A DNA stretch of 64,000 nucleotides. Source: Bacteroidota bacterium (GTDB lineage Bacteria > Bacteroidota > Ignavibacteria > Kryptoniales > JAKASW01). Of this stretch, positions 7,852-47,156 are shown one piece after another. The DNA is taken from NCBI GenBank assembly GCA_023381615.1, contig JAMCQL010000014.1:80569-144568 (forward strand), given 5' to 3'. Numbering within the stretch: the first letter of the stretch is position 1; each line of letters opens with the position of its first letter. The position numbers were made by a program, and so were the translations under genes. Below the pieces are notes generated by a model that searched no databases, was not told the DNA's origin, and saw only the letters and a list, made by a program, of their open reading frames with translations.

Positions 7852-8287
7852 GTTAGCAGTAAATATTCTCTCTGTGTCTCATTGCCTCTGTGTTTCAATT
7901 TGAACCACGAGAGACACGTCCGCCTCGGCTCGAGGCGGAGAGTTCACAACGCGGCAAAGCCGCAACCAAACAAGAGGTTCAAGTCCGCAGGATCCTTCGG
8001 ATAGGATAAGTATTTTCCTGACCAGAGCAGGTCTAATGTTAACCAGGGTTTCTTTTCATAAGATGTGCGCGTTGATCTCCTGTGTCTCCTCTCCCTTGAT
8101 GGGCCTACGGCTCGACGAGTCGAGTCATCGACCTCGTAGAGGAGAGGATTAAGGTGAGGGTGATTTTCGATTGGTCGGTTATGCCTTTCACAGTTTGTCC
8201 ATAGTTTCAGACAACAGGTTTTCGTGCGATCAAGCTGGCAATCTTGAAACAGACCCCCTTTTAGGTTTATATTTCACAGAGGTTTAC
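7852..8287. repeat. Repeat-rich intergenic spacer
   Basis: No gene is seen. The spacer holds a fragment of the 'ctctgtgtctc' family (7871-7897), a perfect-looking palindrome CCGCCTCGGCTCGAGGCGG near 7920, a GCGGCaaaGCCGC hairpin near 7953, a ggatccttcgg fragment near 7987, and from 8086 to 8164 a copy of the 'cctctcccttga...gaggtgagggtga' family split by an inserted palindrome. It appears to be a landing zone for small repeats. Confidence 0.7.
8086..8164. repeat. 'Cctctcccttga' repeat with a second palindrome nested inside
   Basis: The outer parts (cctctcccttga at 8088-8099 and ggagaggattaaggtgaggg from 8141) match the uninterrupted copy at 62246-62284. Between them about 41 bases (8100-8140) with CTCGACGAGTCGAG have been added; related cgacgagtc..gacgagtcatcgac sequence occurs at 28224-28276. 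The layout says one repeat jumped into another. Confidence 0.6.
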
Positions 8288-8596: not shown

Positions 8597-11227
<2,631 letters not shown>

Positions 11228-13491: not shown

Positions 13492-14041
13492 GGTACTAGA
13501 TCGCAAAGTTATTTATCGCGGCAAAGTTTTCAGTACTATCGTAGATGAAGTGGAATACGATTCCGGTCATAAGGCGATTCGGGAAGTCGCGGAGCATCCC
13601 GGCGGTGCGGTTGTGCTTCCTTTGCTCGATGACGGCCGAATTGTGTTCGTTTACCAGAAGCGCTATCCGTTGAATGAATTTCTTTACGAACTTCCCGCGG
13701 GAAAATTGGAGCCGAATGAGCCTCCGGAACTTTGCGCTAAGCGTGAGTTAAAAGAGGAGACAGGCTACGACGCCGGACAGATCGAGAAGCTGACAGCAAT
13801 TTACACCTCGCCGGGATTCTGCACGGAGAGACTTCACATATTCATCGCGCGTGATCTGCGGGATGGAAAACAGAATCTTGAAGAGGGGGAGATTGATCTG
13901 AAATTGAAACTCATTCCCGCGAAAGAAGCTTTTGAAATGGTCGGGAGAGGGGAGATAGTTGACGCGAAAACAATTGTGGGGCTGTTTTTTCTCAGGAATT
14001 CTGTATCCCGACCGTGGTCGGGATCCTTTGGAAAAGTTTGA
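13481..14041 (+). CDS. NUDIX hydrolase (ADP-ribose pyrophosphatase type)
   Basis: A 186-residue protein with a perfect NUDIX box: G-x5-E-x7-REL-x-EE-x-GY in GKLEPNEPPELCAKRELKEE and following TGY. The YRGKVFSTIVDEVEYDSG start and the later TSPGFCTERLHIF are typical of ADP-ribose/ADP-sugar pyrophosphatases. ATG 13481 lies inside the end of pyrE (11-base overlap). The last 13 residues (from SVSRPW) are encoded by a palindromic element at 14004-14030, so the natural C-terminus was replaced or extended. The stop TGA shares its last A with the next ATG. Confidence 0.9.
   Translation: MPLKVLDRKVIYRGKVFSTIVDEVEYDSGHKAIREVAEHPGGAVVLPLLDDGRIVFVYQKRYPLNEFLYELPAGKLEPNEPPELCAKRELKEETGYDAGQIEKLTAIYTSPGFCTERLHIFIARDLRDGKQNLEEGEIDLKLKLIPAKEAFEMVGRGEIVDAKTIVGLFFLRNSVSRPWSGSFGKV
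14004..14030. repeat. Palindromic element at the 3' end of the NUDIX gene
   Basis: TCCCGACCGTGGTCGGGA followed by tcctttgg; same family as the elements in alaS and the RND pump. It is read in frame up to the TGA at 14039-14041. Confidence 0.65.
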
Positions 14042-15348: not shown

Positions 15349-15836
15349 ACAGGAAAATAGTGATGTATCAAAAGTCGACCTGCGACACCTGCAAGAAGGA
15401 GAAAGCCTATCTTACAAAAGTGAAAGTTTCGTTCGACGAGATCGACATCGTCAAGAATCCACCGACGCGGGAATTTTTGGAAGCGCACATTGAGGAGAAC
15501 AATCTCGACGCTTTCATCAACAAGTATTCGAAACCATACCGCGAACTTAATCTTACCAAAAGTTGTACATGTCCCGCGGGACACCACGACGGATGAAAAC
15601 GCCGCAGGTGACCGTCACTTCTATGTCATATTGTCAGTGTATTGCAATATTGGGACAAGTGACGGTCACATTCACAGAAGCGTTTTCAAGCGAGGAAAGT
15701 GAGCAAGTCGGAGTTGATTGACTTGATGCTGAAGTACCCCAACTTGATCAAGCGGCAGATTTTCATTGTGGGAAAGTCATCGCGAAGCGGGATCCCGCTT
15801 GCGGGAAAAGTCTATTTTGGATACAACGAGATTTAA
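15345..15836 (+). pseudogene. ArsC/Spx-like protein gene interrupted by a MITE-like repeat
   Basis: The first part encodes MNRKIVMYQKSTCDTCKKEK and continues to SKPYRELNLTK, an ArsC/Spx-type thioredoxin-fold start with a CxxC. At about 15562 the family sequence ends and a repeat carrying in-frame TGA at 15594-15596 follows. The expected C-terminal half resumes in the SAME frame at 15702 (SKSELIDLMLKYPNLIKRQI) and ends at TAA 15834-15836. This second half itself contains a 25-base palindromic element (15781-15805, SRSGIPLAG) before KVYFGYNEI. So the gene carries at least two insertions and one of them stops translation. An 83-residue N-terminal product could still be made. Confidence 0.8.
15594..15689. 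repeat. MITE-like element, copy 1 (inside the arsC-like gene)
   Basis: Imperfect inverted ends tgaaaacgc...GTGACCGTCACTT and AAGTGACGGTCAC...gcgttttca enclose a core with tatgtcatattgtcagtgtattgcaa. A second copy lies at 21277-21364 with the same inner arms. There is no coding capacity for a transposase. A further palindrome GTCCCGCGGGAC lies just upstream at 15571-15582. Confidence 0.65.
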
Positions 15837-16878: not shown

Positions 16879-17145
16879 TGCTGAGGGGCAGAAATCTTAT
16901 TCGTGCCGCAGTGTCTGCGTGTAACAAAAGATTGTTTCACAGAGAGACACAGAGAAAAGACGGAGTTACACAGAGGAAAGAACATCTCCGCCCCGACTTT
17001 GTCGGGATCACTTAGACCGGATTTCAGGTATTGACTCAATCGAGAGCCGCATGAAGTGTAAAGAGACATCGTTGACATTATTAAGAGTCTATTGTTTCCA
17101 AAAACTCACATCAACGCAGTTAAATCTTTAGGGGAGTAGCGAAGA
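16879..17145. repeat. Spacer with 'cacagag' repeat and a CCCGAC palindrome
   Basis: Positions 16919-16990 hold the sequence gtaacaaaagattgtttcacagagagacacagag and its continuation, the reverse-strand form of the array at 27084-28380. At 16991-17007 it is joined to CCCCGACTTTGTCGGGA, identical in core to the palindrome in the pseudo-tRNA units. No gene seen. Confidence 0.7.
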
Positions 17146-21276: not shown

Positions 21277-21364
21277 GAAAATGCCCCAAGTGACCATCAC
21301 TTCTATGTCAGATCGTCAGTGCATTGCAATGTTTACACGAGTGACGGTCACCTTCACGCCAAAG
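21277..21364. repeat. MITE-like element, copy 2
   Basis: Matches copy 1 (15594-15689) across the core: GTGACCATCACTTCTATGTC, a central cagtgcattgcaatg and GAGTGACGGTCACCTTCAC. It lies between the PIN toxin and the C-terminal end of the giant kinase. Confidence 0.6.
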
Positions 21365-26636: not shown

Positions 26637-27083
26637 TTAGCCGCCCCTTTTTGATGGAACCTCGTTTAAGACAAGCCAGTACAAACCCAAGTTGCGTACC
26701 GCTTCTGTAAACTGGTCGAAATTCACCGGCTTACGGATGTAACTATTCGCTCCTAACTTGTAACTCGCTAACATATCCTGCTCTTCCTTGGAGGAGGTGA
26801 GCACGACAACCGGCAGCAGTTCCGTTCGCTCATCGCCGCGCAGCCGGCTCAACACTTCGAGGCCATTCACCTTAGGAAGATTAATGTCCAGCAGGACCAC
26901 TTGCGGCATGATGCTGAGATCGCGGCCTTCATACATGCCCGTTCCGAACAAATAATCGAGCGCCTCAGCTCCATCATGCGCAACTACAACCTCGTTCTTA
27001 ATATGGTTCTCCTTCAAAGCGTGAAGCGTCAGCAGCTCATCGTCAGGGTTGTCTTCCACTAGCAGGATCATTTTGTTTTCCAT
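26637..27083 (-). CDS. Rcp1-like single-domain response regulator
   Basis: A 148-residue receiver with the acidic pocket EDNPDDELL, phospho-acceptor Asp66 in QVVLLDINLPKVNG, Thr in VVVLTSS and Lys118 in SYIRKPVNFDQF. The long spacing between strand 3 and the acceptor and the FDQF ending are typical of Rcp1-type regulators that pair with phytochrome-like kinases. It has no output domain, so it acts by protein contact. It lies just upstream of the giant kinase on the same strand and in the same operon. Confidence 0.9.
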   Translation of the reverse strand: MENKMILLVEDNPDDELLTLHALKENHIKNEVVVAHDGAEALDYLFGTGMYEGRDLSIMPQVVLLDINLPKVNGLEVLSRLRGDERTELLPVVVLTSSKEEQDMLASYKLGANSYIRKPVNFDQFTEAVRNLGLYWLVLNEVPSKRGG

Positions 27084-27104
27084 GTAGTTTCTCCTTTTCG
27101 ATTA

Positions 27105-27600
27105 TAGGCTTTTTCCACTCTTTCAAATGACCTTTTATTACACGGAGTGACACCGAGAAACACAGAGTTCCATCCGCGGGATCCTTCGGGCGGAGATGTT
27201 CTTTCCTCTGTGTAGCTCCATCTGTTCTCTGTGTCTCTCTGTGAAATAATCTTTTGTTACACGGAGTGACACCGAGAAACACAGAGTTCCACAGAGAGTG
27301 TTTACTTCGCATGTCTGTGAAATAATCTTTTATTACACTGAGTGACACTGAGAAACACAGAGTTCCACAGAGAGTGTTTACTTCGCATGTCTGTGAAATA
27401 ATCTTTTATTACACTGAGTGACACTGAGGAACACAGAGTTTCATCCACGGGGTCCTTCGGGCGGAGATGTTCTTTCCTCTGTGTAACTCCATCTGTTCTC
27501 TGTGTCTCTCTGTGAAATAATCTTTTGTTACACTGAGTGACACTGAGAAACCCAGAGTTCCACAGAGAGTGTTTACTATGCATGTCTGTGAAAGGTTCTT
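27105..27600. repeat. Tandem array of 'cacagag' repeats (left arm)
   Basis: The phrase gtgaaataatcttttgttac recurs at 27241, 27317, 27393 and 27512, giving steps of 76, 76 and 119 bases; a further 119-base step precedes. The longer unit contains an extra ccgcgggatccttcgggcggagatgttctttcctc segment with a palindromic element. Repeated words are acacagagttccacagagag and ctctgtgtctctctgtg. Open frames on the minus strand here (SLWNSVFLSVTQCNKRLF type) are translations of the repeat, not genes. Confidence 0.85.
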
Positions 27601-27614
27601 TTGTTAAATACAGA

Positions 27615-27986
27615 TCAAAAGACATATCTCTTGATGCCATTTTTTAGAACCGTGACGTTGAAATTAATAAGCAATCCGATTTTCTTCTTTGCAAAACGCA
27701 TGTAAGTTAGTATTTGTGCTTCATGGATTGGAGCGAGAGCATCAACGGATTTCAATTCTACAACGACAGTGCCATTTACGAGAATATCAATCCTGTAACC
27801 ACACTCGAGTTTAACCTCTTTATAAACAACAGGAACTGGTTTTTGCCTCTCGACCGAAAATCCTCTGCTGGTTAGTTCATAACTCAGACATTCCTCATAG
27901 GCAGACTCTAGCATGCCAGGTCCAAGTTGCTTATGTACCTCTATCGCCGCACCGATTATTTCTCTCGTTATTTCATTGAATTCCAT
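27615..27986 (-). CDS. GxxExxY protein (PD-(D/E)XK nuclease-like)
   Basis: A 123-residue protein of the GxxExxY family. The naming motif is Gly24-x-x-Glu27-x-x-Tyr30 in LGPGMLESAYEECL. Further on, Asp67 in CGYRIDILV and Glu77-Leu-Lys79 in VVVELKSVDAL form the D...ExK pattern of PD-(D/E)XK nucleases, and IHEAQILTYMRF closes the core. The ATG at 27986 is the family start; the frame runs upstream through repeat sequence but that is not coding. It is enclosed on both sides by the same 'cacagag' repeats. Biochemical function of the family is unknown. Confidence 0.85.
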   Translation of the reverse strand: MEFNEITREIIGAAIEVHKQLGPGMLESAYEECLSYELTSRGFSVERQKPVPVVYKEVKLECGYRIDILVNGTVVVELKSVDALAPIHEAQILTYMRFAKKKIGLLINFNVTVLKNGIKRYVF

Positions 27987-28002
27987 GCTCACTCCCAGTT
28001 TT

Positions 28003-28385
28003 GTTTTGGTAAGTTCTTTCCTCTGTGTAGCTCCATCTTTTCTCTGTGTCTCTCTGTGAAATAATCTTTTGTTACACGGAGTGACACCGAGGAGCACAGA
28101 GTTCCACAGAGGAATTATTTCTCTGTGTCTCTCTTTCTTTTCTCCGTGGAACTCTGTGAAATAATTCCTCTTCTTGTAAGTAAAAACGTTACACAGAGTA
28201 ACACAGAGAAGCACAGAGTTCCACTCGACGAGTCCCAACGGGTCTATCGACCCGAAGGGTCATGGACGAGTCATCGACAGAGTAATTATTTCTCTGTGTC
28301 TCTCTTTCTTTTCTCTGTGTCTCTCTGTGAAATAATCCTTTGTTACACGGAGTGACACCGCGGAATACAGAGCTTCATCAGCGGA
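28003..28385. repeat. 'cacagag' repeats (right arm) with an inserted palindrome
   Basis: Continuation of the family of 27105-27600 in both orientations: ctctgtgtctctctgtgaaa at 28036 and 28314, and inverted cagagttccac forms at 28097 and 28213. At 28224-28276 a palindromic cluster (ctcgacgagtcccaacgggt and onward) is inserted. No gene seen between 27987 and 28456. Confidence 0.8.
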
Positions 28386-30745: not shown

Positions 30746-31445
30746 TTACTCGTTTTTGACTCAATGCGCCCGCCTGACTTCTGCCTCTCTGGCGCATGGG
30801 GAAACGCACCATAGATCTGTACCATGTTCTAATGTATTACTGTCAAAATAATAAAGCAAGATGTGAACGGAACACGGGTGTGCGACACCTTGTCAAGTGC
30901 CGCCTTGTCCGAAGGACTCCTTCGGAGCGGCATCCCGCATACAATGTAATTTAAATGATCGAGCGGGAGTTTCTTTTGACCCTTGACAAGGTTGAAGGAT
31001 GCGGCCCTGAACCTTGTCAAGGTCAAGAGCATTCCAACCTTGACAAGGTTTGATTCCCCGCCTGTCTTTCCCAAGCTCGGAGTTTATCCCGCCCCGGCGG
31101 GACTTGGGAAAGTCAAGGGTTCTGCTTCTGTTGACTTGCTTGTCATTGGTGGAATTAATGAAGCGGAGCTTCGAGGTATCCCTTCCCAAGCAGGGGCTTG
31201 GGAAGGAGAAAAAACATACCTAGAGACGTGGCCGAAAAGTCCCTTTCGAAAAAGATGGGACACAGAGTTCCACCGAGAAGACACAGAGAGACACCGAGAA
31301 TAAGTCTTCTCTCTGTGGAACTCAAAGATTTTCTCTGTGTCGCTCTGTGTAATTTTTCTTCCTACCGGGTTTTCGGCCGAATCTCTAGCTTTCTTTATGC
31401 AAGGATTTATAGCCGCGGGTGGTTCTCTTTCCCGAGCGTTTCAGT
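30746..31445. repeat. 700-base repeat-only spacer
   Basis: No gene. From left: CCTTGTCAAG at 30888, tCCGAAGGActCCTTCGGA at 30907, three palindromes of the CCTTGNCAAGG type (30981-30993, 31010-31022, 31036-31050), a stem CTTTCCCAAG/CTTGGGAAAG (31066-31112) enclosing cccgccccggcggg, a palindrome CCTTCCCAAG..CTTGGGAAGG (31181-31206), and 'cacagag' family sequence in inverted orientation (31258-31352). Apparent frames across it are repeat translations. Confidence 0.75.
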
Positions 31446-36901: not shown

Positions 36902-37522
36902 GTGATTGAAACCGAACCTAAAGTTCCCACGAGAGAAGAAGCGGTATCACTCCTCTTTGAATACACGAAGACGGAGAGTCTCCGAAAGCATGCCCTTGCC
37001 GTCGAAGCGGTAATGCGCGCTTGTGCGAAGAAATTTAATGAGGATGAAAATCTCTACGGACTGGCGGGCTTACTCCACGACTTCGATTACGAAATGTATC
37101 CGAATGCTGACCAGTCCACAGGATCTCGCCTTGGCGAGCCGCCTTCGGAGACCTTCGGACATCCCTACGTTGGAAATAAAATTCTGGCCGAGAAAGGCTA
37201 CCCTGAAATTCTCAGGCAGGCAATCCTGGGGCACGCTCCGTACACGCACGTTGCTCGTGAGACGCAAATGGCAAAATGCCTTTTTGCTGTCGACGAACTT
37301 TCCGGATTCATAGTAGCAGTTGCACTTGTTCGTCCCACCAGACTCGAAGGTTTGGAGCCGTCGTCGGTCAAAAAAAAGCTCAAGGACAAAGCCTTCGCGC
37401 GGAGTGTCAGCCGAGAAGACATCAAGAATGGAATTGCGGAATTAGGAATACCGGAAGACGAGCATATAAGCTTCGTGATAAAAGCGCTTCAAGAAAACGC
37501 GGGAACTTTAGGAATGAGTTGA
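36902..37522 (+). CDS. HDIG/HD-superfamily hydrolase with an in-frame palindromic insertion
   Basis: A 206-residue protein; GTG 36902 is the only plausible start. HD-fold ligands are His in LRKHALAVEAVM and His-Asp in GLLHDFDYEMYPN, then GHAPY. Between MYPNADQ and HPYVGNKIL, where relatives of this family run on directly, there are about fourteen extra residues (STGSRLGEPPSETFG region) encoded by a 42-base palindromic element. The same element is in the 20-haem cytochrome gene. The family hydrolyses nucleotides or other phosphates; function here unknown. Confidence 0.85.
   Translation: MIETEPKVPTREEAVSLLFEYTKTESLRKHALAVEAVMRACAKKFNEDENLYGLAGLLHDFDYEMYPNADQSTGSRLGEPPSETFGHPYVGNKILAEKGYPEILRQAILGHAPYTHVARETQMAKCLFAVDELSGFIVAVALVRPTRLEGLEPSSVKKKLKDKAFARSVSREDIKNGIAELGIPEDEHISFVIKALQENAGTLGMS
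37119..37160. repeat. 42-base palindromic element in the HD hydrolase gene
   Basis: Holds CTCGCCTTGGCGAG (imperfect palindrome) and GCCTTCGGAGACCTTCGGAC. It matches 45792-45833 at all but one position. The length of 42 is a multiple of three, so the reading frame is kept. Confidence 0.75.
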
Positions 37523-37878
37523 TGGCAAGAGTAACAGCGATTGTTAATGATTTAATTTTCATGACGAAAATCCGGAATATCGCAGAGTATTTTGGATTGA
37601 CTGTCGGATTTGTCGGCACTGAAGACCAGATCGATCTTTACCTCAAGGATTGCGAACTAATTTTAATCGATCTTGAGAACGACTTTATCGACTCGCTCAG
37701 TCTCATTGAAAAGCTCAAGGCGAATCCGGCAACAGCCTCCATCAAACTGATAGCGTATCTCTCACACGTGAACACGCCTCTCAGGGCTCAAGCGCTCGCG
37801 GCTGGGTGCGACGAGGTTCTTGCCCGCTTCGAATTCAATTCCAATATGAGAGGAATCCTTCAGGCGGCTTGTTGTTAG
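37522..37878 (+). CDS. Receiver-like (pseudo-receiver) protein
   Basis: A 118-residue protein. ATG 37522 shares bases with the stop of the HD gene (TGATG). The layout resembles a CheY fold: LILIDLENDF at the position of the phospho-acceptor strand, KANPATASIKLIAYLSHVNT for strand 4 and helix 4, and ALAAGCDEVLARFEF at the end. The acidic pocket after the first strand is not evident (VTAIVNDLIF), so it is probably not phosphorylated normally. It may bind the HD protein; that is inference. Confidence 0.6.
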   Translation: MARVTAIVNDLIFMTKIRNIAEYFGLTVGFVGTEDQIDLYLKDCELILIDLENDFIDSLSLIEKLKANPATASIKLIAYLSHVNTPLRAQALAAGCDEVLARFEFNSNMRGILQAACC

Positions 37879-38023
37879 TTTGTCCCACATAGTACGACAA
37901 TTGCCTTGATGAATATCTTGTTCGGTTATATGGTCTATTGATTCTCTTGAACTCAAATTTATTTTTCTGGCATATTCGCCTCAGACTCATTGATAACAAA
38001 AAAGTATTCTAAAAGAAGGTTAC

Positions 38024-38857
38024 ATGGTCTACAAACCCTCATTGTCGTTAGTTATTGCCGTCTATAATAAGCCTGATGTTCTCAGATTCGTACTGGCAAC
38101 GTGCAATCGTCAATCGTTTAAGGATTTTGAAATTATAGTTGCCGACGACGGTTCTGGCCCAGAAGTAAGAGAAGTCGTAGAGGAATCAAGAGTGCTTTAT
38201 GGCTTTCCCATAATACATCTATGGCAAGAAGACATGGGCTGGCGAAAGGACAAGATGCTTAACAGCGCGATCCGTTCCTCCAGTTCGGAATATCTTGTGT
38301 TTGTGGACGGGGATTGCCTTTTGGGGAAGGATTTCTTGCTTGATCATTGGAATCAACGCGAGAGTAATAGAATCCTTTTTGGGAGGCGAGTGCAGATGAG
38401 CGAGAGATGGTTTAAGACGTTAACTCTTGCAAAGGTGATGAGTGGAGAATATGAGAAGATCGGGATGAGAGAACTGATCGATGGATTGAAAGGAGACACG
38501 ACTTATCTTGAGACGGGCATAAGGATAAAAAATAAGTTGTTGCGCAAATTTCTATTCCGCAATTCGATTGCGATGCTTGGGTCCAATTTTTCAGTTCATA
38601 AGAAGGATATGGTGACCATTAACGGCTTCGACGAGACGTATGACGAACCGGGATTGGGGGAAGACACCGATGTCGAATTCAGGCTTTCACTCATCGGCGT
38701 AACTGGGAAATCGCTGCGTAATCTCGCGCTCCAATTTCATGTACATCATCCTCCTCCGAAGTGGTCTCTGAAGTCCATCAAGAGACTCGATGCGGTAAAA
38801 GCTGCAAAAAATCCGAGGTGCATGATTGGGTTGGATAATAGCAGAGAGTTGGACTGA
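38024..38857 (+). CDS. Family 2 glycosyltransferase
   Basis: A 277-residue soluble GT2 enzyme: LSLVIAVYNKPDVLRF, IVADDGSGPEV, YLVFVDGDCLLGKD (DxD motif) and GLGEDTDVEFR with a terminal galactosyltransferase-like segment. It resembles chondroitin-synthase-type or WcaA transferases that act on cell-surface glycans. AGAAGG precedes ATG 38024. Stands alone between the pseudo-receiver and fmt. Confidence 0.88.
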   Translation: MVYKPSLSLVIAVYNKPDVLRFVLATCNRQSFKDFEIIVADDGSGPEVREVVEESRVLYGFPIIHLWQEDMGWRKDKMLNSAIRSSSSEYLVFVDGDCLLGKDFLLDHWNQRESNRILFGRRVQMSERWFKTLTLAKVMSGEYEKIGMRELIDGLKGDTTYLETGIRIKNKLLRKFLFRNSIAMLGSNFSVHKKDMVTINGFDETYDEPGLGEDTDVEFRLSLIGVTGKSLRNLALQFHVHHPPPKWSLKSIKRLDAVKAAKNPRCMIGLDNSRELD

Positions 38858-38920
38858 CATGGCGTCTTTGTTTCCAGTTGCTGCTCAATTAATTTTCTGT
38901 GTAAACCTATCGAGAGTAAG

Positions 38921-39856
38921 ATGAAAATTGTTTTCATGGGGACGCCGGAATTTGCCGTCCCTTCGCTGAAAGCTATCGCTGAAGCAGGTTATGAAATTGC
39001 CGCAGTCGTAACGAATCAAGACGAGCCGCAGGGGAGAGGCTTAAAAATTTCTCCGTCTGCGGTAAAGACGGCAGCGCTCGAACTCGGATTGCCCATCATT
39101 CAAGCTGCGTCGCTGAAAGATCCTGAATTTGTGGCGAGACTGAAGACTATTGCGCCCGACTTGATGGTTGTGGTTGCCTTCAGGATTTTGCCCAGAGACG
39201 TTTTTACAATTCCAAAGCTTGGCACGTTCAATCTCCACGCCTCGCTTTTGCCGCGCTACCGGGGGGCAGCGCCGATTAATTGGGCAATAATAAGAGGGGA
39301 ACGCGAAACGGGCGTAACAACATTTTTCCTCGACGATAAAGTTGACACCGGGAAAATCATACTCCAAAAGAAAACGTCAATTAGTATTGACGATACCGCC
39401 AGTGAACTTGCCAAGCGGCTTTCTTTGACAGGCGCAGAGGCAGTCGTGGAAACAATACGACTTGTAGAGGATGGCAATGTCAAGATCATCGAACAGGACA
39501 ACTCGCTTGCCACAACAGCGCCAAAGATTTCAAAAGAGAATTGCCTGATCGACTGGTCAAAACCGGCAAAGGAAGTTCACAACTTTGTCCGCGGCTTTTC
39601 GCCCGAGCCGGGAGCTTATACTTTTCTCGATGATAAATTTCTGAAGATCTTCAGGACACGTTTGACAGGAGAGAAAGCGAATCCCTCCGCTGGGGAAATA
39701 AAAATAGGAGCCGGGCGGTTTTATACGTCGTGCTCTGATGAACTCGTCGAGGTATTGGAGTTGCAGTTAGAAGGTAAGAAAAAGCTGGACGCGCGTGAGT
39801 TTGTCAGAGGCGCGCGAATCGAGTCAGGCGAAAAATTTCAGAATGGTAAAGCCTAA
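38921..39856 (+). CDS. fmt: Methionyl-tRNA formyltransferase
   Basis: A 311-residue enzyme that formylates Met-tRNA-fMet with 10-formyl-THF. MKIVFMGTPEFAVPSL, then the active-site run FNLHASLLPRYRGAAPINWA (Asn, His, SLLPxYRG loop), TGVTTFFLDDKVDTG with the catalytic Asp, and the C-terminal tRNA-binding OB domain (GAYTFLDDKFLKIF) are all present. Its natural substrate, the initiator tRNA, is encoded 500 bases downstream at 40350, an unusually close pairing. Confidence 0.96.
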   Translation: MKIVFMGTPEFAVPSLKAIAEAGYEIAAVVTNQDEPQGRGLKISPSAVKTAALELGLPIIQAASLKDPEFVARLKTIAPDLMVVVAFRILPRDVFTIPKLGTFNLHASLLPRYRGAAPINWAIIRGERETGVTTFFLDDKVDTGKIILQKKTSISIDDTASELAKRLSLTGAEAVVETIRLVEDGNVKIIEQDNSLATTAPKISKENCLIDWSKPAKEVHNFVRGFSPEPGAYTFLDDKFLKIFRTRLTGEKANPSAGEIKIGAGRFYTSCSDELVEVLELQLEGKKKLDAREFVRGARIESGEKFQNGKA

Positions 39857-39861
39857 TTCGG

Positions 39862-40152
39862 TTAGTTGGGCTTTTCTGTCGCGGCGGGTTTTTCGGCTTT
39901 TACGGTAGAGGTTGTTTCTGGTTTCTTCGATTTACTTTCGCCGTTGCCGCCGGCCGGGGAAGAGTTCGATTTCTTGTAGTCTGTTAGGTAGAAGCCTGAG
40001 CCTTTGAATATGAGAGCGGCGCCGGTACCAATAAGCCTGTGAACCTTGCTGCCGCATTTCGGACATTTGGTTAATGGTTCATCGTTCATTGATTGAAGTT
40101 CTTCGAAGACATGACCGCATTTATCACATTTATATTCGTACGTCGGCATCAT
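39862..40152 (-). CDS. FmdB-family zinc-ribbon protein
   Basis: A 96-residue protein with two CxxC pairs (YKCDKCGHVF and TKCPKCGSKV) forming a zinc ribbon, then FKGSGFYLTDYKK, the FmdB family C-terminal phrase, and a low-complexity Lys/Glu/Pro tail. FmdB-type proteins are putative regulators. The family usually begins MPTYEYKC, so the second ATG (40149) may be the real start. It converges on fmt with five bases between stops. Confidence 0.88.
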   Translation of the reverse strand: MMPTYEYKCDKCGHVFEELQSMNDEPLTKCPKCGSKVHRLIGTGAALIFKGSGFYLTDYKKSNSSPAGGNGESKSKKPETTSTVKAEKPAATEKPN

Positions 40153-40311
40153 TACACTCCATTTTCACTTTTTCAATATGCAAAATTTAAGACATAGCAC
40201 CTGAACATTCAATCTCCAGTCGTTTGTAACAGCAAGCATAATTCTTTTGTTCCATTCAATCTGATGATGAATTCTTGTTACAGATTCAATGACATTTGGT
40301 CAATCCGAACC

Positions 40312-40340
40312 TTGTTTACGGTTGTACGTTTAGTTATATT
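40312..40340 (+). promoter_or_regulatory. Candidate promoter of tRNA-fMet
   Basis: TTGTTT (40312-40317), 17-base spacer, TATATT (40335-40340), ten bases before the tRNA start at 40350. No similar pair was seen inside the downstream repeat units. Confidence 0.5.
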
Positions 40341-40349
40341 GTTTCCGAT

Positions 40350-40422
<73 letters not shown>

Positions 40423-40423
40423 C

Positions 40424-41103
40424 AAAACAAAGTCCGCCTGAAAGCGGACTTTGTTTTTCTTAGGCTGTTAGCTCGTGGGTTCATATCCCGACTTTGTCGG
40501 GACGAAGGTTCGAATCCTTCCCCCGCTACAAAACAAAGTCCGCCTGAAAGCGGACTTTGTTTTTCTTAGGCTGTTAGCTCGTGGGTTCATATCCCGACTT
40601 TGTCGGGACGAAGGTTCGAATCCTTCCCCCGCTACAAAACGAAGTCCGCCTGAAAGCGGACTTTCTTTTTCTTAGGCTGTTAGCTCGTGGGCTCATATCC
40701 CGACTTTGTCGGGACGAAGGTTCGAATCCTTCCCCCGCTACAAAACGAAGTCCGCCTGAAAGCGGACTTTCTTTTTCTTAGGCTGTTAGCTCGTGGGCTC
40801 ATATCCCGACTTTGTCGGGACGAAGGTTCGAATCCTTCCCCCGCTACAAAACGAAGTCCGCCTGAAAGCGGACTTTCTTTTTCTTAGGCTGTTAGCTCGT
40901 GGGCTCATATCCCGACTTTGTCGGGACGAAGGTTCTCCCGAAGGGACTCCTTCGGAGGAATCCTTCCCCCGCTACAAGACGAAGTCCGCGTGAAAGCGGA
41001 CTTTCTTTTTCTTAGGCTGTTAGCTCGTGGGCTCATATCCCGACTTTGTCGGGACGAAGGTTCTCCCGAAGGGACTCCTTCGGAGGAATCCTTCCCCCGC
41101 TAC
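40424..41103 (+). repeat. Six tandem terminator + pseudo-tRNA-fMet units (106 or 128 bases)
   Basis: Units: 40424-40529, 40530-40635, 40636-40741, 40742-40847 (106 each), 40848-40975 and 40976-41103 (128 each). A seventh begins and breaks off at 41104-41118. Every unit consists of the tRNA terminator hairpin, then ggctgttagctcgtggg-TTCATAT-ccc (a seven-base anticodon loop with CAT), a palindrome TCCCGACTTTGTCGGGA in place of the variable region, and the intact T arm and 3' acceptor strand TTCCCCCGCTA. The 5' acceptor strand is missing. The last two units have a second palindrome (CCGAAGGGACTCCTTCGG) in the T loop. Units 1-2 differ from 3-6 by a few shared bases. The phrase MGSYPDFVGTKVRILPPLQN read across it is not a gene. 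Confidence 0.9.
40427..40459 (+). terminator. Intrinsic terminator of tRNA-fMet
   Basis: ACAAAGTCCGC (40427-40437), loop ctgaaa, GCGGACTTTGT (40444-40454), then a T-run TTTTTCTT. The stem is 11 perfect pairs. A copy lies in each following repeat unit. Confidence 0.85.
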
Positions 41104-41145
41104 AAAACGAAGTCCGCCATCGTGCGGGTCTTTCGTCATCTGGAG

Positions 41146-42099
41146 TTACGTGACTCTTTTGTCAAGGGAGCTGTTTTGCCTGAATCTCAGACTTTCTTTC
41201 ATGGGTGCTCCCCTCAAAACAAAAAGACCAAGTTTAAGGAATTTGGAATCTTTATACGATTTTCGCAGCAACTTCACGGCAAAGAGTAGTCTCAGGATGA
41301 CCCGATTGAAAGCAGAATAGTATTTTCTTAAGAAATACAGATACGAAATGTAGAACTCTTTCTCGACCGCCAGGTTTCGGTTTGTGCTCCCCCCTCCGTA
41401 ATGGATGAATTTCGCTCCCGGCACAAGATAAATCCGCCATCCGTTTTTCCGCATTCTCATGCAAAGATCCTCCTCTTCGCTGTAGAGAAAATAATTCGTG
41501 TCGAAACCGCCGATGTCGACGAAATGCGCTCTTCTCACAAACATAGCGCTTCCGGTGGCATAAGGGATCGTTATCGGTTCCGAGTACTCTTTTTTATTCG
41601 AGCGATACATTTCTTTATTGAACAATCGCATGAATCCTGTGCCCAATAGTATTGCGCCAACCGACGGATAATACCCGAACGAAGGCAGCGGCTGCATATT
41701 CGGAGAATACATCTGGCCGGTGGCAATGCTGACCGCTGGAGTTTCGTCGAAGAAGTTGCCCAAAGTTGAAATCACGTCGTTTACAAACACACAATCATTA
41801 TTCAGGAAAAAATAATATGCGGAATCAGGATGCGCCTGTTGAACTCCCAACATATTTCCGCCAGAAAACCCCAGATTAATTCTGCTTCCAAAAATTTTGA
41901 CAGAAGGAATACTCTCGATTTCTTTCAGCTCGATGAAATCTTCCTCTTTTGAGTTGTTGTCAACGATTACTATTTCGTAGTTTTTTGATTTGGTGTGTTC
42001 GATTATCGAATTCACACAGTCGATTGTATAATGCCTGGAATTGTAATTTATAAGGATTACAGAGACTTCGGGATTGTTCGGCATCGTATTAGCGATCAA
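41146..42099 (-). CDS. Family 2 glycosyltransferase (rhamnosyltransferase-like)
   Basis: A 317-residue soluble GT2 enzyme: EVSVILINYNSRHYT, IVIVDNNSKEE, NLGFSGGNMLGV, YYFFLNNDCVF (NDxC variation of the DxD region), PYATGSAMFVRRAHF and the acceptor site YFLYSEEEDLCMRMRKNGW. These are the marks of WbbL-type rhamnosyltransferases used for O-antigen or other surface glycans. The C-terminus runs close to the end of the pseudo-tRNA array. No other glycan gene is in its operon. Confidence 0.9.
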   Translation of the reverse strand: MIANTMPNNPEVSVILINYNSRHYTIDCVNSIIEHTKSKNYEIVIVDNNSKEEDFIELKEIESIPSVKIFGSRINLGFSGGNMLGVQQAHPDSAYYFFLNNDCVFVNDVISTLGNFFDETPAVSIATGQMYSPNMQPLPSFGYYPSVGAILLGTGFMRLFNKEMYRSNKKEYSEPITIPYATGSAMFVRRAHFVDIGGFDTNYFLYSEEEDLCMRMRKNGWRIYLVPGAKFIHYGGGSTNRNLAVEKEFYISYLYFLRKYYSAFNRVILRLLFAVKLLRKSYKDSKFLKLGLFVLRGAPMKESLRFRQNSSLDKRVT

Positions 42100-42223
42100 T
42101 TCTTATGCAGAACCATCCCGTAGGCGTTCCGGAAGTTATCGTGACCCAAGCAAAACCTCTTCGTGTCTCATCTTTTGCATGCGCTCAATATGCTTAGGGA
42201 GAAATTCTAAAGCAATCCTTCTG

Positions 42224-43858
42224 CTAAAATCTGAAATTCAATCCGCCGATGAGACTTCCGTAAGTAGTCTTATTGCTGAAGATACCCTCGTAGTAAAGAT
42301 TGAAAAACAGTCGGTCGAAAATTCTAGTGGAGGCTTCGACTGTGGCTGTGTTCTGAATAAGATTGTTCCCCCCATTTCCAAAGCTATAATTTATCCTCGA
42401 GTAACCAGCCGAGACCGTGGTGAAATTAAAGGGAAGATATTTGGAAAATCTTATTCCATAAATCGAACCGTCAAGGTAATTGCTAAGTATTCTGTTGTAT
42501 GAGATCGTGCCGGAAATCATTAGCAACGGTATTTCCGTTTGGGTAATTGAAATATTTATATTTCTTGAAGGCCTAACATCACCCTTCTGAAAGCCGTAAC
42601 CAGCGCCGAGATTAACGAACATGCCAGAGAATGGCATCCAGTTTATTCCTATTCTTAGACCTTGTCGCAATTCATTTTGAAAGAGACTATCGAGGAGGCT
42701 TCCGAAGGTTTGATAGTAGATAACATTTTTTCTTGCATCGTAGGATAGATTGAAAGACAAATTGCCAACGGGATAGTATTGAGTCGAGAAAAACAGGTTG
42801 GTAAGAGAAAAGTCATTCTTTGGCAGGTTGTTCTGTAACTTGAAAAGATCAACCTCCATTGATAGAAAGAAGTTTAGATTGTTGAACAAGTTACTGTTAT
42901 GTTGAAAGTAGATAAATCGTCTGTCTGTTCTCATGTCATTGTTTTGCTGGAAGACCGCGATAGTATTTTCCATCAAGCCACTGCTTAGGGTATCGGTCCT
43001 GTTCAAATAACCGCCGAATTCAAAAAGTTTAGAGTTGAAAGCCATGTCGCCGAAATCCGGCCTCGAGCCTACCACACCACCGGCGGAATAACTCCCGAAA
43101 TGTTTCTCCATTTGCAGTCCGTCAACCGGACCAACATCTGAAATGTGATTATTAATATGCCTTCCAAACCAGAAGTCGAACCCGCTTCCTTTGTAGCCGA
43201 GTGTCAGGTCGTAAATTCTCAAATTATTAAACAGGCTTGATTTCACATCCTGCCATTCGCTGTTGACATAAGAAAAGTTCATGTAGTTCGAAAAATAGAC
43301 CGAAGTCCCGGCAATACTTTCCGCGTTCAATGAGACTGAATAATTCCATCTCTGAATATTTGAGCTGCCGGTATAATTCGAAAAATTGGAATAGGAACTT
43401 GCAGACACTCCTCCGTAAAATCTTGAGCTGCTAAGCGGTGTTTGTACGAAGTTTTCTTCAACCTGAGGGCTTGCATTAGTCTGCACAGAATTGGTATCCA
43501 ACTTTACTTCGGTCATTTTTTGGGGCAGCGCCTTTGAGGCTTCCACTTTTACTAAAGCAAACATTTTGTCGCCAACTTTCAATTCCAAATTACCAATCTT
43601 TTCACCGGCGCATGACTGAGTCGACATATACTTAATTGCTACAGCGGGCACAAGTTTTCCTCTGCTCTCGAAAAAAATCGTGTCGCCTACGGCTATGCCG
43701 TCTGTATTTCCAAATCTTAGGTAAATATTTTGCGGGGTAATAAAAGAAACAGTCCCGACCTTTTTTTGAAGCCTTCGTTCCCGCGAATGCGCAGCATTGA
43801 AGGAAGATACTACCACAAGAATGAGAAAGAATGCTCCTCTAATTTGCCGATTCATCAC
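42224..43858 (-). CDS. Outer-membrane beta-barrel protein of the multihaem module
   Basis: A 544-residue protein with a signal peptide (FFLILVVVSSFNAAHS), a small N-terminal beta domain (about 30-110, VGTVSFITPQNIYLRFG), a linker, and a long barrel (from about 150) of alternating aromatic/polar strands ending GSLIGGLNFRF, with Phe as last residue. It is the last gene of a five-gene minus-strand run behind two multihaem cytochromes, separated from them by two bases. By position it could be the pore through which a cytochrome carries electrons across the outer membrane. It has no recognisable similarity to MtrB by motif; that role is inference. Confidence 0.75.
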   Translation of the reverse strand: MMNRQIRGAFFLILVVVSSFNAAHSRERRLQKKVGTVSFITPQNIYLRFGNTDGIAVGDTIFFESRGKLVPAVAIKYMSTQSCAGEKIGNLELKVGDKMFALVKVEASKALPQKMTEVKLDTNSVQTNASPQVEENFVQTPLSSSRFYGGVSASSYSNFSNYTGSSNIQRWNYSVSLNAESIAGTSVYFSNYMNFSYVNSEWQDVKSSLFNNLRIYDLTLGYKGSGFDFWFGRHINNHISDVGPVDGLQMEKHFGSYSAGGVVGSRPDFGDMAFNSKLFEFGGYLNRTDTLSSGLMENTIAVFQQNNDMRTDRRFIYFQHNSNLFNNLNFFLSMEVDLFKLQNNLPKNDFSLTNLFFSTQYYPVGNLSFNLSYDARKNVIYYQTFGSLLDSLFQNELRQGLRIGINWMPFSGMFVNLGAGYGFQKGDVRPSRNINISITQTEIPLLMISGTISYNRILSNYLDGSIYGIRFSKYLPFNFTTVSAGYSRINYSFGNGGNNLIQNTATVEASTRIFDRLFFNLYYEGIFSNKTTYGSLIGGLNFRF

Positions 43859-43860
43859 GA

Positions 43861-45528
43861 TTAGTCCCCTGCGGTTCCACTTGGATGGCAGCTATAGCAA
43901 GAAGTGGGACTGTACACATAGCCGCCTACATCTTGGTGATGAGGATCGGTATTTGCCTGGCTGTGTTCGTGACAATTGATGCAGGAAAAGACAGTAAAGT
44001 TTGTGGAATTGGTATGACAATCGGAACATAAAGTCCATCTGCCGGCATGAGTGCCGGAGTAGATTGGAAAATATTGGCCGTCATGATTAAAAGTTGAAGG
44101 CTGCCAAGCACTTTGCGAATGGCAACTTTGGCAATCGGTTGGGAAACCCGCTGCTTGATGCGCCGGATTTGTCGTTGAGTTATAATCATTCTGGTGACAT
44201 CCGTAGCAAGTGGCCGGCGCTGTATTGTAGTTTCCATTGTGGCATTGATCGCAAGTAAGTGACGCATGAGCGCCAACTATTTGATAATAATTATTATGAA
44301 TTGGAAATGTGGCAGGCTTCCAGCCGGGATTTGTTGTGTGGCAGGTTTCGCAGCCCGTTGGCAGCGCTAATGCAGGATGATTCGGATTTGTTGTGCTTTG
44401 ATAATTCTGCTGATGACAGCTATAACAAATCGTCGGTATTCCTGCAAAGCCTGTTGTGTGGCAAGAAGAACAATTAACAGTAGTATGCGCACCTGTAAGC
44501 GGGAACGCTGTGGTATTGTGGTCAAAAGTCGATTGATTCCATGAGGTCGTATTGTGACACATTTTGCAGTCAGTCGGATAGTTTTGCGCTGCATGATTTG
44601 GCGCTGAGTTATACTTATCTCTGTGGCATGAAATGCAATCAGGGCTTAACACACCAATTGTTCCTTTATGACAAGCCGAACAGTTCAACGTTGAATGACT
44701 GCCCGTCAAAGCAAATCCTGTCGTTGCATGATTAAAACTTGCCGGTATCCAGGCATTTATTGTATGGCAGCTTTTACAATCTGTGGACATCCCCAGCGCC
44801 GCATGATTTGGACTAATGGTCTGCTCATAATTTGTCTTATGACAGCTGTAGCAGTCCGTCGATAATCCGTTGAAGTTACTCCCTTGCGTGTGGCACGCAA
44901 AACAATTTTGGATATTATGTCCGCCGACTAACGGAAAAAAATCGTGATTGAAATTTGCGGCAGTCCAAACAAAGCCGGTAACACCGTGGCAATCCTGGCA
45001 TTCAATTGAGAATCCGGATTGAACATGGTTTGGTGAAGTTGCGGCATAGTACTGCTCGGCATGGCAGCTGATGCAGGAAGTATTCAGAGGTGGGAAATAC
45101 AATTCTGAATAACCTGAATGACAACTAGCGCAATCGACATTTTGATGAGCGCCAACGAGCGGGAATCGAGTGTTCCTATGTATTTCATTTGCATTTGAAA
45201 TCAACCATGTAGTTGGCGTATGGCATCTTGAACAGTCCGGCCCCAAGGTGCTCTGATGAACATCCCGATGACAGGAGTTACAGTTACTTTTCGCATCAGA
45301 GAAGATTAGACTCGTGTGGCATGATTTGCACCCTACCTCCGCATGTTGGCCGGTCAGTTTGAAGGAGGTCTCATCATGGTTGAATTTTATATGCTCTGGA
45401 ATGACTTTCCAACTTGTTGGTTCATGGCAATATGAGCAATCAAGTTTCAGCTCATCTCCATGAGGGGACTGCGAAAAAACGGTTGAAGCCGAAAGCATCA
45501 AGGCTATGATGAATGGCAAGATTCGCAT
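43861..45528 (-). CDS. 22-haem c-type cytochrome
   Basis: A 555-residue protein with a signal peptide (MRILPFIIALMLSASTVFS). I count 22 CxxCH haem-binding motifs, from CSYCH to the final CYSCH. From residue 20 it is built of about 62-residue units with three haem sites each, of the form CxxCH...W...FNH...F.L.G.H....C.xCH...CxxCH, plus many extra His that can be the second haem ligand. Such arrangements make a continuous haem wire. The start lies inside the end of the upstream gene (25-base overlap). Expected location is the periplasm or outer surface. Confidence 0.93.
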   Translation of the reverse strand: MRILPFIIALMLSASTVFSQSPHGDELKLDCSYCHEPTSWKVIPEHIKFNHDETSFKLTGQHAEVGCKSCHTSLIFSDAKSNCNSCHRDVHQSTLGPDCSRCHTPTTWLISNANEIHRNTRFPLVGAHQNVDCASCHSGYSELYFPPLNTSCISCHAEQYYAATSPNHVQSGFSIECQDCHGVTGFVWTAANFNHDFFPLVGGHNIQNCFACHTQGSNFNGLSTDCYSCHKTNYEQTISPNHAALGMSTDCKSCHTINAWIPASFNHATTGFALTGSHSTLNCSACHKGTIGVLSPDCISCHRDKYNSAPNHAAQNYPTDCKMCHNTTSWNQSTFDHNTTAFPLTGAHTTVNCSSCHTTGFAGIPTICYSCHQQNYQSTTNPNHPALALPTGCETCHTTNPGWKPATFPIHNNYYQIVGAHASLTCDQCHNGNYNTAPATCYGCHQNDYNSTTNPAHQAAGFPTDCQSCHSQSAWQPSTFNHDGQYFPIYSGTHAGRWTLCSDCHTNSTNFTVFSCINCHEHSQANTDPHHQDVGGYVYSPTSCYSCHPSGTAGD

Positions 45529-47156
45529 TTGAAATTTTCCAGTTTATATTTGACGAAAGTGTTTCCGTTTACTGTAACCACTTTATGGCACTTGACGCAT
45601 CCCAACTTTTTGTGAGCGCCTGTAAGATGGAAACTCGTGCGATTATGGTCAAAAGTAGTAGTGGTCCAGTTTTCAAAGCCGTGGCATCTTTGACAGTCTG
45701 TTATTTTTCCTTTGGCAAACTGTCCGTAATGAACATCTTTATGGCAAGTTTCACAATCTGAATTTAAAGAACGAAAGATTGATTCTTCTCCGCAGGATCT
45801 CGCCTTGGCGAGTCGCCTTCGGAGACCTTCGGACAAACCGCCGTGAGTTTTTGTATAGTGGCACGCCCTGCATTCGACCGTCAGATGTTTTCCTAATAAT
45901 TTGAATTTCGTCTTGTCGTGATCGAACGAAATTTTCTGCCAGCCCTCGATCGAATGGCAAACCGTGCATTTGTTATCGGGTAAGAATTGGTTCGTTAATT
46001 CGGTTCCGTGTACATTCTTGTGGCAGTCGATACATTTCAATCCGATTTTTTCAAATTGCCAGGAGTCGACGGCGTAATGACAGGATTTGCATGAAACGGC
46101 CAAATGGCTCCCGGTTAGTTCAAACTCAGTTTTGTTGTGCATCTCAATCGTGTAAGTGGTAAGTTTAAAACCCTCCACCGTGTGGCATTTGGAGCAATCT
46201 GTAACAATATTATTTTTAGTAAATTGACCCTTGTGATAATCCCGGTGACAATCAACGCATTCATCATGTTTAGGTCTTGAGTTTAAATCTTTCCCATGGC
46301 AGTTTTTGCATGAGACTTCAACATGTAAACCTCTCAACGGATAATTTGTTAAGTCATGGTCGAAAGAGTTTGTCTTTATCAGCTTAAATGAAACATCAGT
46401 GTGGCATTTTTTGCAGTTCTCGCCAAACTTTTTTTGATGAACATCTCTATGGCAGGGGGTGCAATTACTGAATTGCAGCCCAACGAACTTCTGAAAGTCT
46501 TGTCTATTTCTTTTTTCCGTTATGTGGCATTTTGAGCATTCGACTTTTTCGTGAGCGCCGGTTAAGATAAAATTGGTTTTGTTATGGTCGAAGTTTGCTG
46601 CAGGTTTAAATTTTTCCGTGTTGTGGCAGGAAGAACAATTGGTGCCCAGGGTATTCTGATGGGGATCTTCATGGCACGTGATGCAGTTCTTATCAAGTCC
46701 TAAATAGGTGCTTTTCCTCTCTTTCAATTCGGGATTTGAAATAAACTTTGATCGATGACATTCGATGCAATCGATTCTGGAGTGTTTTCCGTCCAGCTTA
46801 AATCCGGTTACTTCATGGTCGAATTCCTTTGGATTAAAATTGATAATTCTGAAGTCTCTTCCGTGATGTTCGCCGTGGCACGACCAGCAGTCTTTGTTTT
46901 TTACTTCCGGGCTTGCGTGGTAGCCTTTGTCTTGACTGATCAGACTGTTGATTTCCGTGTGGCATGACAAGCACCGTGAATTTTCTATTTGCTTACCAAG
47001 CACATGGCAAAGCGTACAATTGCTTAACCCCTCGTACTTGGCGTGATAGTAAGTAAGGTTGCCGGGCGAAATTTGTGCAAAGACTTTTGTCGCGGAGAAT
47101 AAGAAAAGGAGAAACGCGGAGAAATACTTGCCGATTATGCGCGTTTTAATTTCCAT
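45504..47156 (-). CDS. 20-haem c-type cytochrome with an in-frame palindromic insertion
   Basis: A 550-residue protein with a signal peptide (FSAFLLFLFSATKVFA) and 20 CxxCH motifs (CTLCH to CESCH) in F-H-x(2)-T-x-F-x-L-x-G-x-H units like those of the next gene. At about residue 442-455 the chain reads GGLSEGLRRRLAKARSCGEE, encoded by the same 42-base element that is in the HD hydrolase gene, in the opposite orientation relative to coding. It is placed between two haem sites and adds one lone Cys. It is probably periplasmic or outer-surface; electron transfer partner of the flavoprotein and cytochrome b upstream. Confidence 0.93.
   Translation of the reverse strand: MEIKTRIIGKYFSAFLLFLFSATKVFAQISPGNLTYYHAKYEGLSNCTLCHVLGKQIENSRCLSCHTEINSLISQDKGYHASPEVKNKDCWSCHGEHHGRDFRIINFNPKEFDHEVTGFKLDGKHSRIDCIECHRSKFISNPELKERKSTYLGLDKNCITCHEDPHQNTLGTNCSSCHNTEKFKPAANFDHNKTNFILTGAHEKVECSKCHITEKRNRQDFQKFVGLQFSNCTPCHRDVHQKKFGENCKKCHTDVSFKLIKTNSFDHDLTNYPLRGLHVEVSCKNCHGKDLNSRPKHDECVDCHRDYHKGQFTKNNIVTDCSKCHTVEGFKLTTYTIEMHNKTEFELTGSHLAVSCKSCHYAVDSWQFEKIGLKCIDCHKNVHGTELTNQFLPDNKCTVCHSIEGWQKISFDHDKTKFKLLGKHLTVECRACHYTKTHGGLSEGLRRRLAKARSCGEESIFRSLNSDCETCHKDVHYGQFAKGKITDCQRCHGFENWTTTTFDHNRTSFHLTGAHKKLGCVKCHKVVTVNGNTFVKYKLENFKCESCHSS
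45792..45833. repeat. 42-base palindromic element in the 20-haem cytochrome gene
   Basis: Matches 37119-37160 with one difference (gagtcgcc for gagccgcc). Read on the minus strand it gives a basic RRRLAKARS peptide; on the plus strand the copy in the HD gene gives SRLGEPPSE. Both are free of stops. Confidence 0.75.

Follow-up and report, generated by a model that had tools for sequence, protein, structure and literature searches.

An apparent species-specific burst of short palindromic elements, many inserted in frame in protein genes, in a Kryptoniales bacterium

Results

Two unrelated genes share an in-frame element

We analysed a 64,000-nucleotide stretch (the window) of contig JAMCQL010000014.1, assembly GCA_023381615.1, from a bacterium of the order Kryptoniales, and found that two unrelated genes in it carry the same 45-bp element in frame. 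A first-pass annotation had described this element as a 42-base palindrome and had seen merely the tip of the matter: the 42-mer represents a single subtype within a modular family whose commonest form is an 18-bp palindrome. Taken together our data suggest that the family represents a species-specific burst of non-autonomous palindromic mobile DNA, a reading to which we assign a probability of about 0.78. The genome holding the window (G000) is a metagenome-derived draft of 3.37 Mb in 86 contigs and was the only genome of its species compared. The two copies and their host genes are as follows.

37115..37159, + strand: 45-bp element, subtype A, in frame in the gene for an HD-domain protein; encodes STGSRLGEPPSETFG; absent from 29 orthologues
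36902..37522, + strand: host gene 1, HD hydrolase-like protein, 206 aa
45789..45833, + strand: second 45-bp copy of subtype A, on the same strand; the gene, on the opposite strand, reads it as SEGLRRRLAKARSCG; 15 codons absent in three same-genus orthologues
45504..47156, - strand: host gene 2, multihaem cytochrome c, 550 aa; Cytochrome_C7 and Cytochrom_c3_2 matches

The HD hydrolase-like protein gave no Pfam match at 1e-8. We looked for it in 61 genomes and aligned it with 29 orthologues, of which 12 came from other species of the genus and the remainder from relatives out to class level. We found STGSRLGEPPSETFG in the window protein alone among the 30 aligned sequences. The orthologues run directly from DQ to HPYVG, as had been expected of the family, and the DNA junction is exact, reading GAC CAG / TCC...GGA / CAT CCC in the window and GAT CAG CAT CCG at the empty site. 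In the cytochrome, exactly 15 codons are absent from 3/3 same-genus orthologues compared. Comparison with orthologues, a check that the first-pass annotation had proposed, thus revealed a clean insertion in both genes, the extra residues being missing from all 29 HD orthologues, distant species included, and from the three cytochrome orthologues.

These comparisons set the inserted unit at 45 bp (15 codons), in place of the 42 bases and 14 codons initially given. The first 42-mer does lie at 37119-37160, but the second, placed at 45792-45833, was one base off and in register occupies 45793-45834. In register the two 42-mers differ at one base, as had been noted, whereas the full 45-bp units differ at two. 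No match to the 42-mer with up to 3 mismatches was obtained in 100 dinucleotide-preserving shuffles of the window. Both copies point the same way on the + strand and their host genes lie on opposite strands, giving the opposite orientations relative to the genes that had been described. Both reading directions had been called free of stops, and indeed all six frames of the 45-mer are open. The word palindrome needs qualifying: the 45-mer folds into a long stem with internal loops, but it is gapped, with an ungapped self-complementarity of merely 9-10 of 22 pairs. In an AlphaFold2 model of the HD protein (mean predicted local distance difference test score, pLDDT, 89) the first nine insert residues (72-80) score below 50, and the insert is predicted to be a low-confidence loop within an otherwise confident helical fold.

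The element belongs to a modular family concentrated in one genome

A 60-base query detected 26 places in G000, with the conserved end TCC[A/G][C/A]AGGATCTCG. A covariance model built from 12 copies was run on G000 and 40 relatives. With at most 147 candidates scored per genome, it located at least about 70 places in G000, with about 50 extended copies at E<0.01; in the 40 relatives nothing among the candidates scored fell below E=0.1. When copies were compared side by side the ends, TCC...GGA, were constant and the middles variable, with the terminal inverted repeat TCCNNAGG at both ends and, in the longer members, other palindromes between them. Longer members span 27 to about 135 bp (27, 39, 45, 54, 60, 72, 78 and up), most extended forms being 39-78 bp, and comprise subtypes A (45 bp net), A2 (54), B (39), C (72) and D (78) together with singletons. 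Particular middles are found at several unrelated sites, that of type B at no fewer than 11.

Because the AccA and IleRS sites of sister species carry just 18 or 21 bp, we searched for an 18-bp core consisting of the ends only. The commonest member of the family is this 18-bp palindrome, TCCNNAGGATCCTNNGGA, with the layout TCC-NN-AGGATCCT-NN-GGA. G000 contains 95 exact copies and 0 of a reversed control pattern. The twelve same-genus genomes have 0-7 copies each, the class-level relative G029 has 4, and almost every other genome sampled from the phylum has at most one. The total in G000 exceeds 140 copies, each with unique flanks and individual sequence differences. Two matches to TCCRMAGGATCTCGACGAGTC in a wider scan of genome contigs (a Pirellulaceae metagenome-assembled genome and Sphingomonas) were isolated and were judged to be chance. 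In G029, which belongs to another family of the class, an 18-mer lies in frame (SEGSFG) in a 177-aa open reading frame (ORF; L237), suggesting spread of the element, or of its type, outside the genus.

Copies within genes are in frame and biased in codon phase

Searches with concatenated host proteins, followed by comparison with retrieved orthologues, identified 32 in-gene insertions in G000, each counted as supported when at least one same-genus orthologue lacked it. All 32 have net lengths divisible by three, in line with the first-pass expectation that in-gene copies across the genome would be in frame. Gap placement is ambiguous in L102, LigA, MeaB and FtsI, and FtsI was left out of the 32. 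Host family names rest on domain matches or alignments, and a few are presumptive. The hosts are listed here.

Extended copies (1): HD protein, cytochrome, histidine kinase/symporter (L017), ABC transporter (L012), zinc-finger protein (L081), FtsK, SdhA-type flavoprotein
Extended copies (2): LptB-like ABC ATPase (L084), MeaB, phosphogluconate dehydrogenase, GltD-like oxidoreductase, DNA ligase LigA, NiFe hydrogenase large subunit, helicase (L102)
Extended copies (3): IleRS, AccA, enoyl-ACP-reductase-like short-chain dehydrogenase/reductase (L114), L116, RNase R, AddB-like protein (L079), AnmK
18/27-mers: AlaRS, RND transporter, histidine kinase (L243), L245, HflX (L247), L248, L253, L254, L258, CinA (L265), L259

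Two in-gene covariance-model matches, CoaE at C13:28361 and C74:11751, were dropped, since the orthologues align gap-free, and a copy at L265:1118 lies in a linker too variable to judge. L017 also has five residues (YFIGR) duplicated in tandem about 25 codons past the element; the G002 orthologue lacks this duplication.

The insertions are unevenly distributed over the three codon phases. In 23 of the 32, TCC falls on a codon boundary (SxGSxG..., SEGQRLDSSRSFG), in 9 the T is at codon position 3 (xPKDPx...), and none is in the third phase (xRRILRx). Target-like sites in the ORFs of this window alone give an expectation of about 11-14 : 9-11 : 9-10, and with phase tallied after the data had been seen the chance of zero copies in the xRRILRx phase is 1e-6 to 3e-5, depending on how the target is defined.

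Four species (G000, G003, G009 and G012) have the hexapeptide STGSFG at the HflX site, and five (G001, G002, G005, G008 and G010) lack it. The DNA of the insert in the four species is TCCACAGGATCCTTTGGA, TCTACAGGATCGTTTGGA, TCTACGGGATCCTTCGGA and TCAACCGGTTCCTTCGGA, and the differences are confined to synonymous third positions. Since the hexapeptide is constant and the DNA changes are synonymous only, this argues that the HflX insert is probably translated and retained, and counts against splicing or ribosomal bypass.

Insertion target, nesting and growth

We compared the flanks of 40 distinct 18-mers, counting both sides. The base at -3 was a pyrimidine in 77%, that at -2 was T in 79% and that at -1 was G in 50%. 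The target is T-N^N-A, often YTG^CA-like, with insertion between the two middle bases. No target duplication was seen at aligned empty sites such as CAG^CAT, ATG^AAG and CTG^AAA. The NN dinucleotides of the core are mutually complementary in 6/40 copies (11.2 expected), no excess over chance.

Three copies (L341, L342 and L343) consist of an 18-mer within an 18- or 19-mer, and taking out the inner copy restores an intact outer one. With the inner copy in brackets they read TCCACAGGATCCTG[TCCAAAGGATCCTTTGGA]TGGA; TCCG[TCCGCAGGAATCTGCGGA]CAGGATCCTGCGGA; and TCCGAAGGACTCCTTCG[TCCAAAGGATCCTGCGGA]GA. Subtype A2 likewise appears, from its sequence, to hold TCCGCCTTTGGCGGA at a CG^GA site. These nestings together with A2 therefore indicate that insertion into existing copies happened repeatedly.

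Some sites are occupied in several species. At AccA, G003, G009 and G012 carry 18 bp, TCCGCCGGACCTTAYGGA, exactly where G000 has 72 bp, and at IleRS G007 and G011 carry 21 bp, compared with 78 bp in G000. G002 and G009 also have one insertion site in common. The loci that share a site are as follows.

AccA: L109, L162, L173, L175
HflX: L247, L330, L361, L362
IleRS: L108, L161, L164

Discussion

A model for spread and growth, and its alternatives

The proposed mechanism begins with an 18-bp palindrome that would insert blunt at T-N^N-A, neither duplicating nor losing target bases. Existing copies have in turn served as targets for more palindromes bounded by TCC...GGA, and nested insertion, deletion and point change would yield the range of modular forms from 27 to about 135 bp; these would then spread themselves. 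Since the lengths of the abundant forms are divisible by three and most of their frames are open, insertion into a gene would add a short polar peptide to the host protein, S-x-G-S-x-G or, in another phase, P-K/Q-D-P. An allele would survive where the insert falls in a tolerant loop, and selection would remove the phase encoding the basic-hydrophobic RRILR. The copies were presumably moved by an active enzyme supplied in trans that would recognise the TCC/GGA ends, either in folded DNA or in the duplex. Most inserts are probably neutral for the host. The strongest form of this model is that the 18-bp palindrome is itself mobile and among the smallest such elements known, inserts blunt at T-N^N-A, grows palindrome-in-palindrome at codon-multiple lengths and in this way supplies essential proteins with short peptide insertions across the genome; we advance it tentatively, as somewhat less probable than its negation.

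Several observations weigh against the reading of the family as a recent mobile burst. Mobility is deduced from copy number, empty sites and nesting; with a single genome of the species, movement within it was not observed. None of the Y1 transposase loci inspected as a possible source of the mobilising enzyme (0/8, from 11 matches in G000) is flanked by the element on both sides. About 21 of the 23 intergenic extended copies also have lengths divisible by three; the amplified subtypes have this length as such, and it does not on its own prove that selection acted at each site. One and the same position is filled, in species that are not sisters, by palindromes of differing length or age, at HflX and AccA (G000 and the trio G003, G009 and G012) and at IleRS (G000, G007 and G011). 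In a tree of SdhA, FtsK and the HD protein G000 does not group with the trio, and the sisters of the trio are G008, G001 and G010, all without the HflX insert. Single-origin insertion alone does not explain the shared HflX and AccA positions; these and the IleRS position reflect either strong site preference, or common precise loss, or gene exchange. The HflX flank of G000 resembles that of G008, which has no insert, and this speaks against exchange of that segment.

The source of mobility could lie among the Y1 genes. Insertion of the IS200/IS605 HUH type leaves no target duplication, and the missing duplication here would fit REP-like (repetitive extragenic palindromic) elements mobilised by a Y1 transposase of G000, of the REP-associated tyrosine transposase (RAYT) or IS200 type, with single-strand hairpins copied by the HUH enzyme. 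The elements do fold into hairpins and G000 does have 11 Y1_Tnp matches, but sister species have 0-10, and one with a similar number (G002, 10) is among those with few copies. Moreover, the inspected Y1 genes adjoin different palindromes (CCCCATCGGGG-, CCTTGCGAAGG- and GGTCGGGAGT-like), an 18-mer is found near just one of the eight loci (a single copy, some 200 nt away from the Y1 domain match), and the GTAG tag is absent. We regard this explanation as unlikely, though it is the one to be taken most seriously. Less likely again is that the 18-mer is the footprint of a larger transposon with 9-bp inverted ends (TCCNNAGGA), left by internal deletion or imprecise excision, with the longer forms as other internal-deletion products. 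The 18-mer does consist of two inverted 9-mers, and the longer forms do have common ends and differing middles. However, the roughly 300 kb of G000 read around element copies contained no full-length transposon with TCCNNAGGATC ends, the nested 18-mers were inserted as units, and identical middles occur at unrelated sites, from which it follows that the short forms were themselves copied.

Other explanations dispense with mobile DNA or with its translation. Hairpin 'byp' elements are found in some yeast mitochondria, and a hairpin-forming sequence within essential genes could similarly be skipped by the ribosome or spliced out. Skipping requires neither lengths that are multiples of three and stop-free in the frame used (32/32), nor a strong phase bias, nor synonymous-only change in a shared insert, and we consider it very improbable. 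The extra residues might be ancestral and lost in relatives, or conserved functional insertions; a C-terminal SAGSSG in RelA is common to several members of the genus. Yet the same DNA occurs in unrelated genes and in intergenic DNA, and the inserts are missing from close and distant orthologues alike, which contradicts this idea for the window copies and makes it more improbable still in general. Misassembly, conceivable in a metagenome-derived draft of 86 contigs, has the least to commend it and can be almost dismissed: more than 140 copies have unique flanks and individual differences, and related insertions are present in independently assembled sisters (G002 and G009 at one site; G003, G009 and G012 at HflX and AccA).

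Relation to known elements

Until now in-frame palindromic repeats were an oddity of Rickettsia, Wolbachia and a small number of REP-rich genomes. The present family adds an apparent recent burst in another lineage, with twelve same-genus genomes in which the sites are empty or occupied by the short or the grown form, so that sequence alone can address the mode of insertion of such repeats, their lengthening and the changes that selection permits inside proteins. It also offers a naturally made list of places where essential enzymes, AlaRS, IleRS, RNase R and FtsK among them, tolerate an insertion, and the 18-mer, if it does itself move, would rank with the smallest mobile DNA described. Our search of the open-access literature found no account of such elements for this group.

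The first-pass annotation had drawn a parallel with Rickettsia palindromic elements (RPEs), reportedly described by Ogata et al. in 2000 and 2002. The parallel holds for the mode of action, since in both cases palindromic repeats with open frames lie between genes and in frame inside conserved protein genes, but not for membership. RPEs are palindromes of 105-146 bp, some of them in frame in genes, with no mobilising enzyme known and target duplication uncertain (PMC2229807). The commonest unit here is 18 bp, and the distinction is drawn on such descriptions. Nesting, a T-N^N-A target and the lack of target duplication set the present family apart, and its host does not have a reduced genome like that of Rickettsia.

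REPs with GTAG or CGTC tags have also been found inside genes, R. conorii RPE-4 and RPE-6 being included among them (Di Nocera et al. 2013; PMC3733652). The CGTC class has no dedicated transposase, and its members have a terminal CGTC (or TGTC/CCTC), an 8-9-bp stem starting with AT pairs, a 4-5-nt loop and a CCA tail (PMC3733652). Like these, our elements are small hairpin repeats, some within genes of DNA and RNA metabolism. In contrast to the GTAG REP/RAYT system they have no unpaired GTAG at one end, their ends being symmetric (TCC...GGA, with YTG/CAR flanks), and no inspected Y1 gene (8 of 11 matches) has copies on both sides. They differ from CGTC REPs in lacking both the CGTC tag and the CCA tail, with both ends alike and a stem of TCC-NN-AGG. 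They also occur mostly as single units, down to 18 bp, and not as head-to-head dimers.

The small dispersed repeats (SDRs) of Nostoc punctiforme, said by Elhai et al. (2008) to be 21-27-nt repeats, some self-nested, and proposed to be among the smallest mobile elements, resemble the present element in being very short, dispersed and self-nested (L341-L343 here). SDRs are reportedly confined to a group of cyanobacteria and form the sequence families SDR1-8; to our knowledge they have not been described as in-frame, codon-multiple inserts in many conserved genes. Terminal inverted repeats are shared with bacterial miniature inverted-repeat transposable elements (MITEs) such as the enterobacterial ERIC/RU-1 and YPAL/RU-2, which are non-autonomous and in some cases fused in frame to genes (PMC2229807). 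These MITEs measure about 100-200 bp and usually duplicate their target (PMC2229807), whereas the present forms start at 18 bp and do not. The family thus acts like RPEs or intragenic REPs yet belongs to neither, and what it adds to the known kinds is the 18-bp unit, the defined target, nesting and growth.

Further copies and other repeats

Further copies of the family in the window are as follows.

10187..10213, + strand: 27-bp composite element TCCCGAAAGCGTTCGGGATCCTTCGGA, in frame in alanyl-tRNA synthetase (tRNA-synt_2c); encodes SRKRSGSFG; three same-genus orthologues lack exactly 9 codons
59800..59826, + strand: 27-bp composite element TCCAAGGGATCCCGACCTTCGTCGGGA, in frame in an RND (AcrB-type) transporter (ACR_tran); encodes SKGSRPSSG; a same-genus orthologue lacks exactly 9 codons
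5721..5738, unstranded: 18-bp core element TCCAAAGGATCCTTCGGA, in the linker of a 247-aa ORF; alignment too variable to prove insertion, as at L265:1118
7984..8001, unstranded: 18-bp core element TCCGCAGGATCCTTCGGA; apparently intergenic
14006..14032, unstranded: 27-bp composite element TCCCGACCGTGGTCGGGATCCTTTGGA, at the 3' end of a 215-aa ORF (SRPWSGSFG-KV-stop); no orthologue found
30908..30926, unstranded: 19-bp variant TCCGAAGGACTCCTTCGGA; no clear gene there

A copy in a TolB-like gene at 17784 was not counted, the gap to the orthologue being 3 residues and not 6. A second palindromic family, TCCCGACNNNNGTCGGGA, seen in the window at 14006, 17784 and 59809, has 55 copies in G000, 13 in G007 and 0-5 in other members of the genus. 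Together with the TCC/GGA family it forms the composite 27-mers. Elsewhere in the genome, IS200-like Y1 genes (L321-L327 and L110) are bordered by short palindromes of their own (CCCCATCGGGG, CCTTGCGAAGG and GGTCGGGAGT), apparently representing several REP/RAYT-type families.

An Rfam scan of the window returned one tRNA and nothing else. Directly after a tRNA gene at 40350-40422, within 40288-41118, lie tandem 106-bp repeats that are 97-98% alike and contain GAATCCTTCCCCCGCTACAAAACGAAGTCCGCC. Clustered dispersed repeats with the motif ACACGGAGTGACACCGAGAAACACAGAG occupy 27079-28382, 16915-16993 and 31261-31360, some inverted relative to a copy 10 kb off. A different long palindrome, with inverted GTGACCGTCAC / GTGACGGTCAC arms, is present as two 81-bp copies (84%) at 15595-15675 and 21277-21357.

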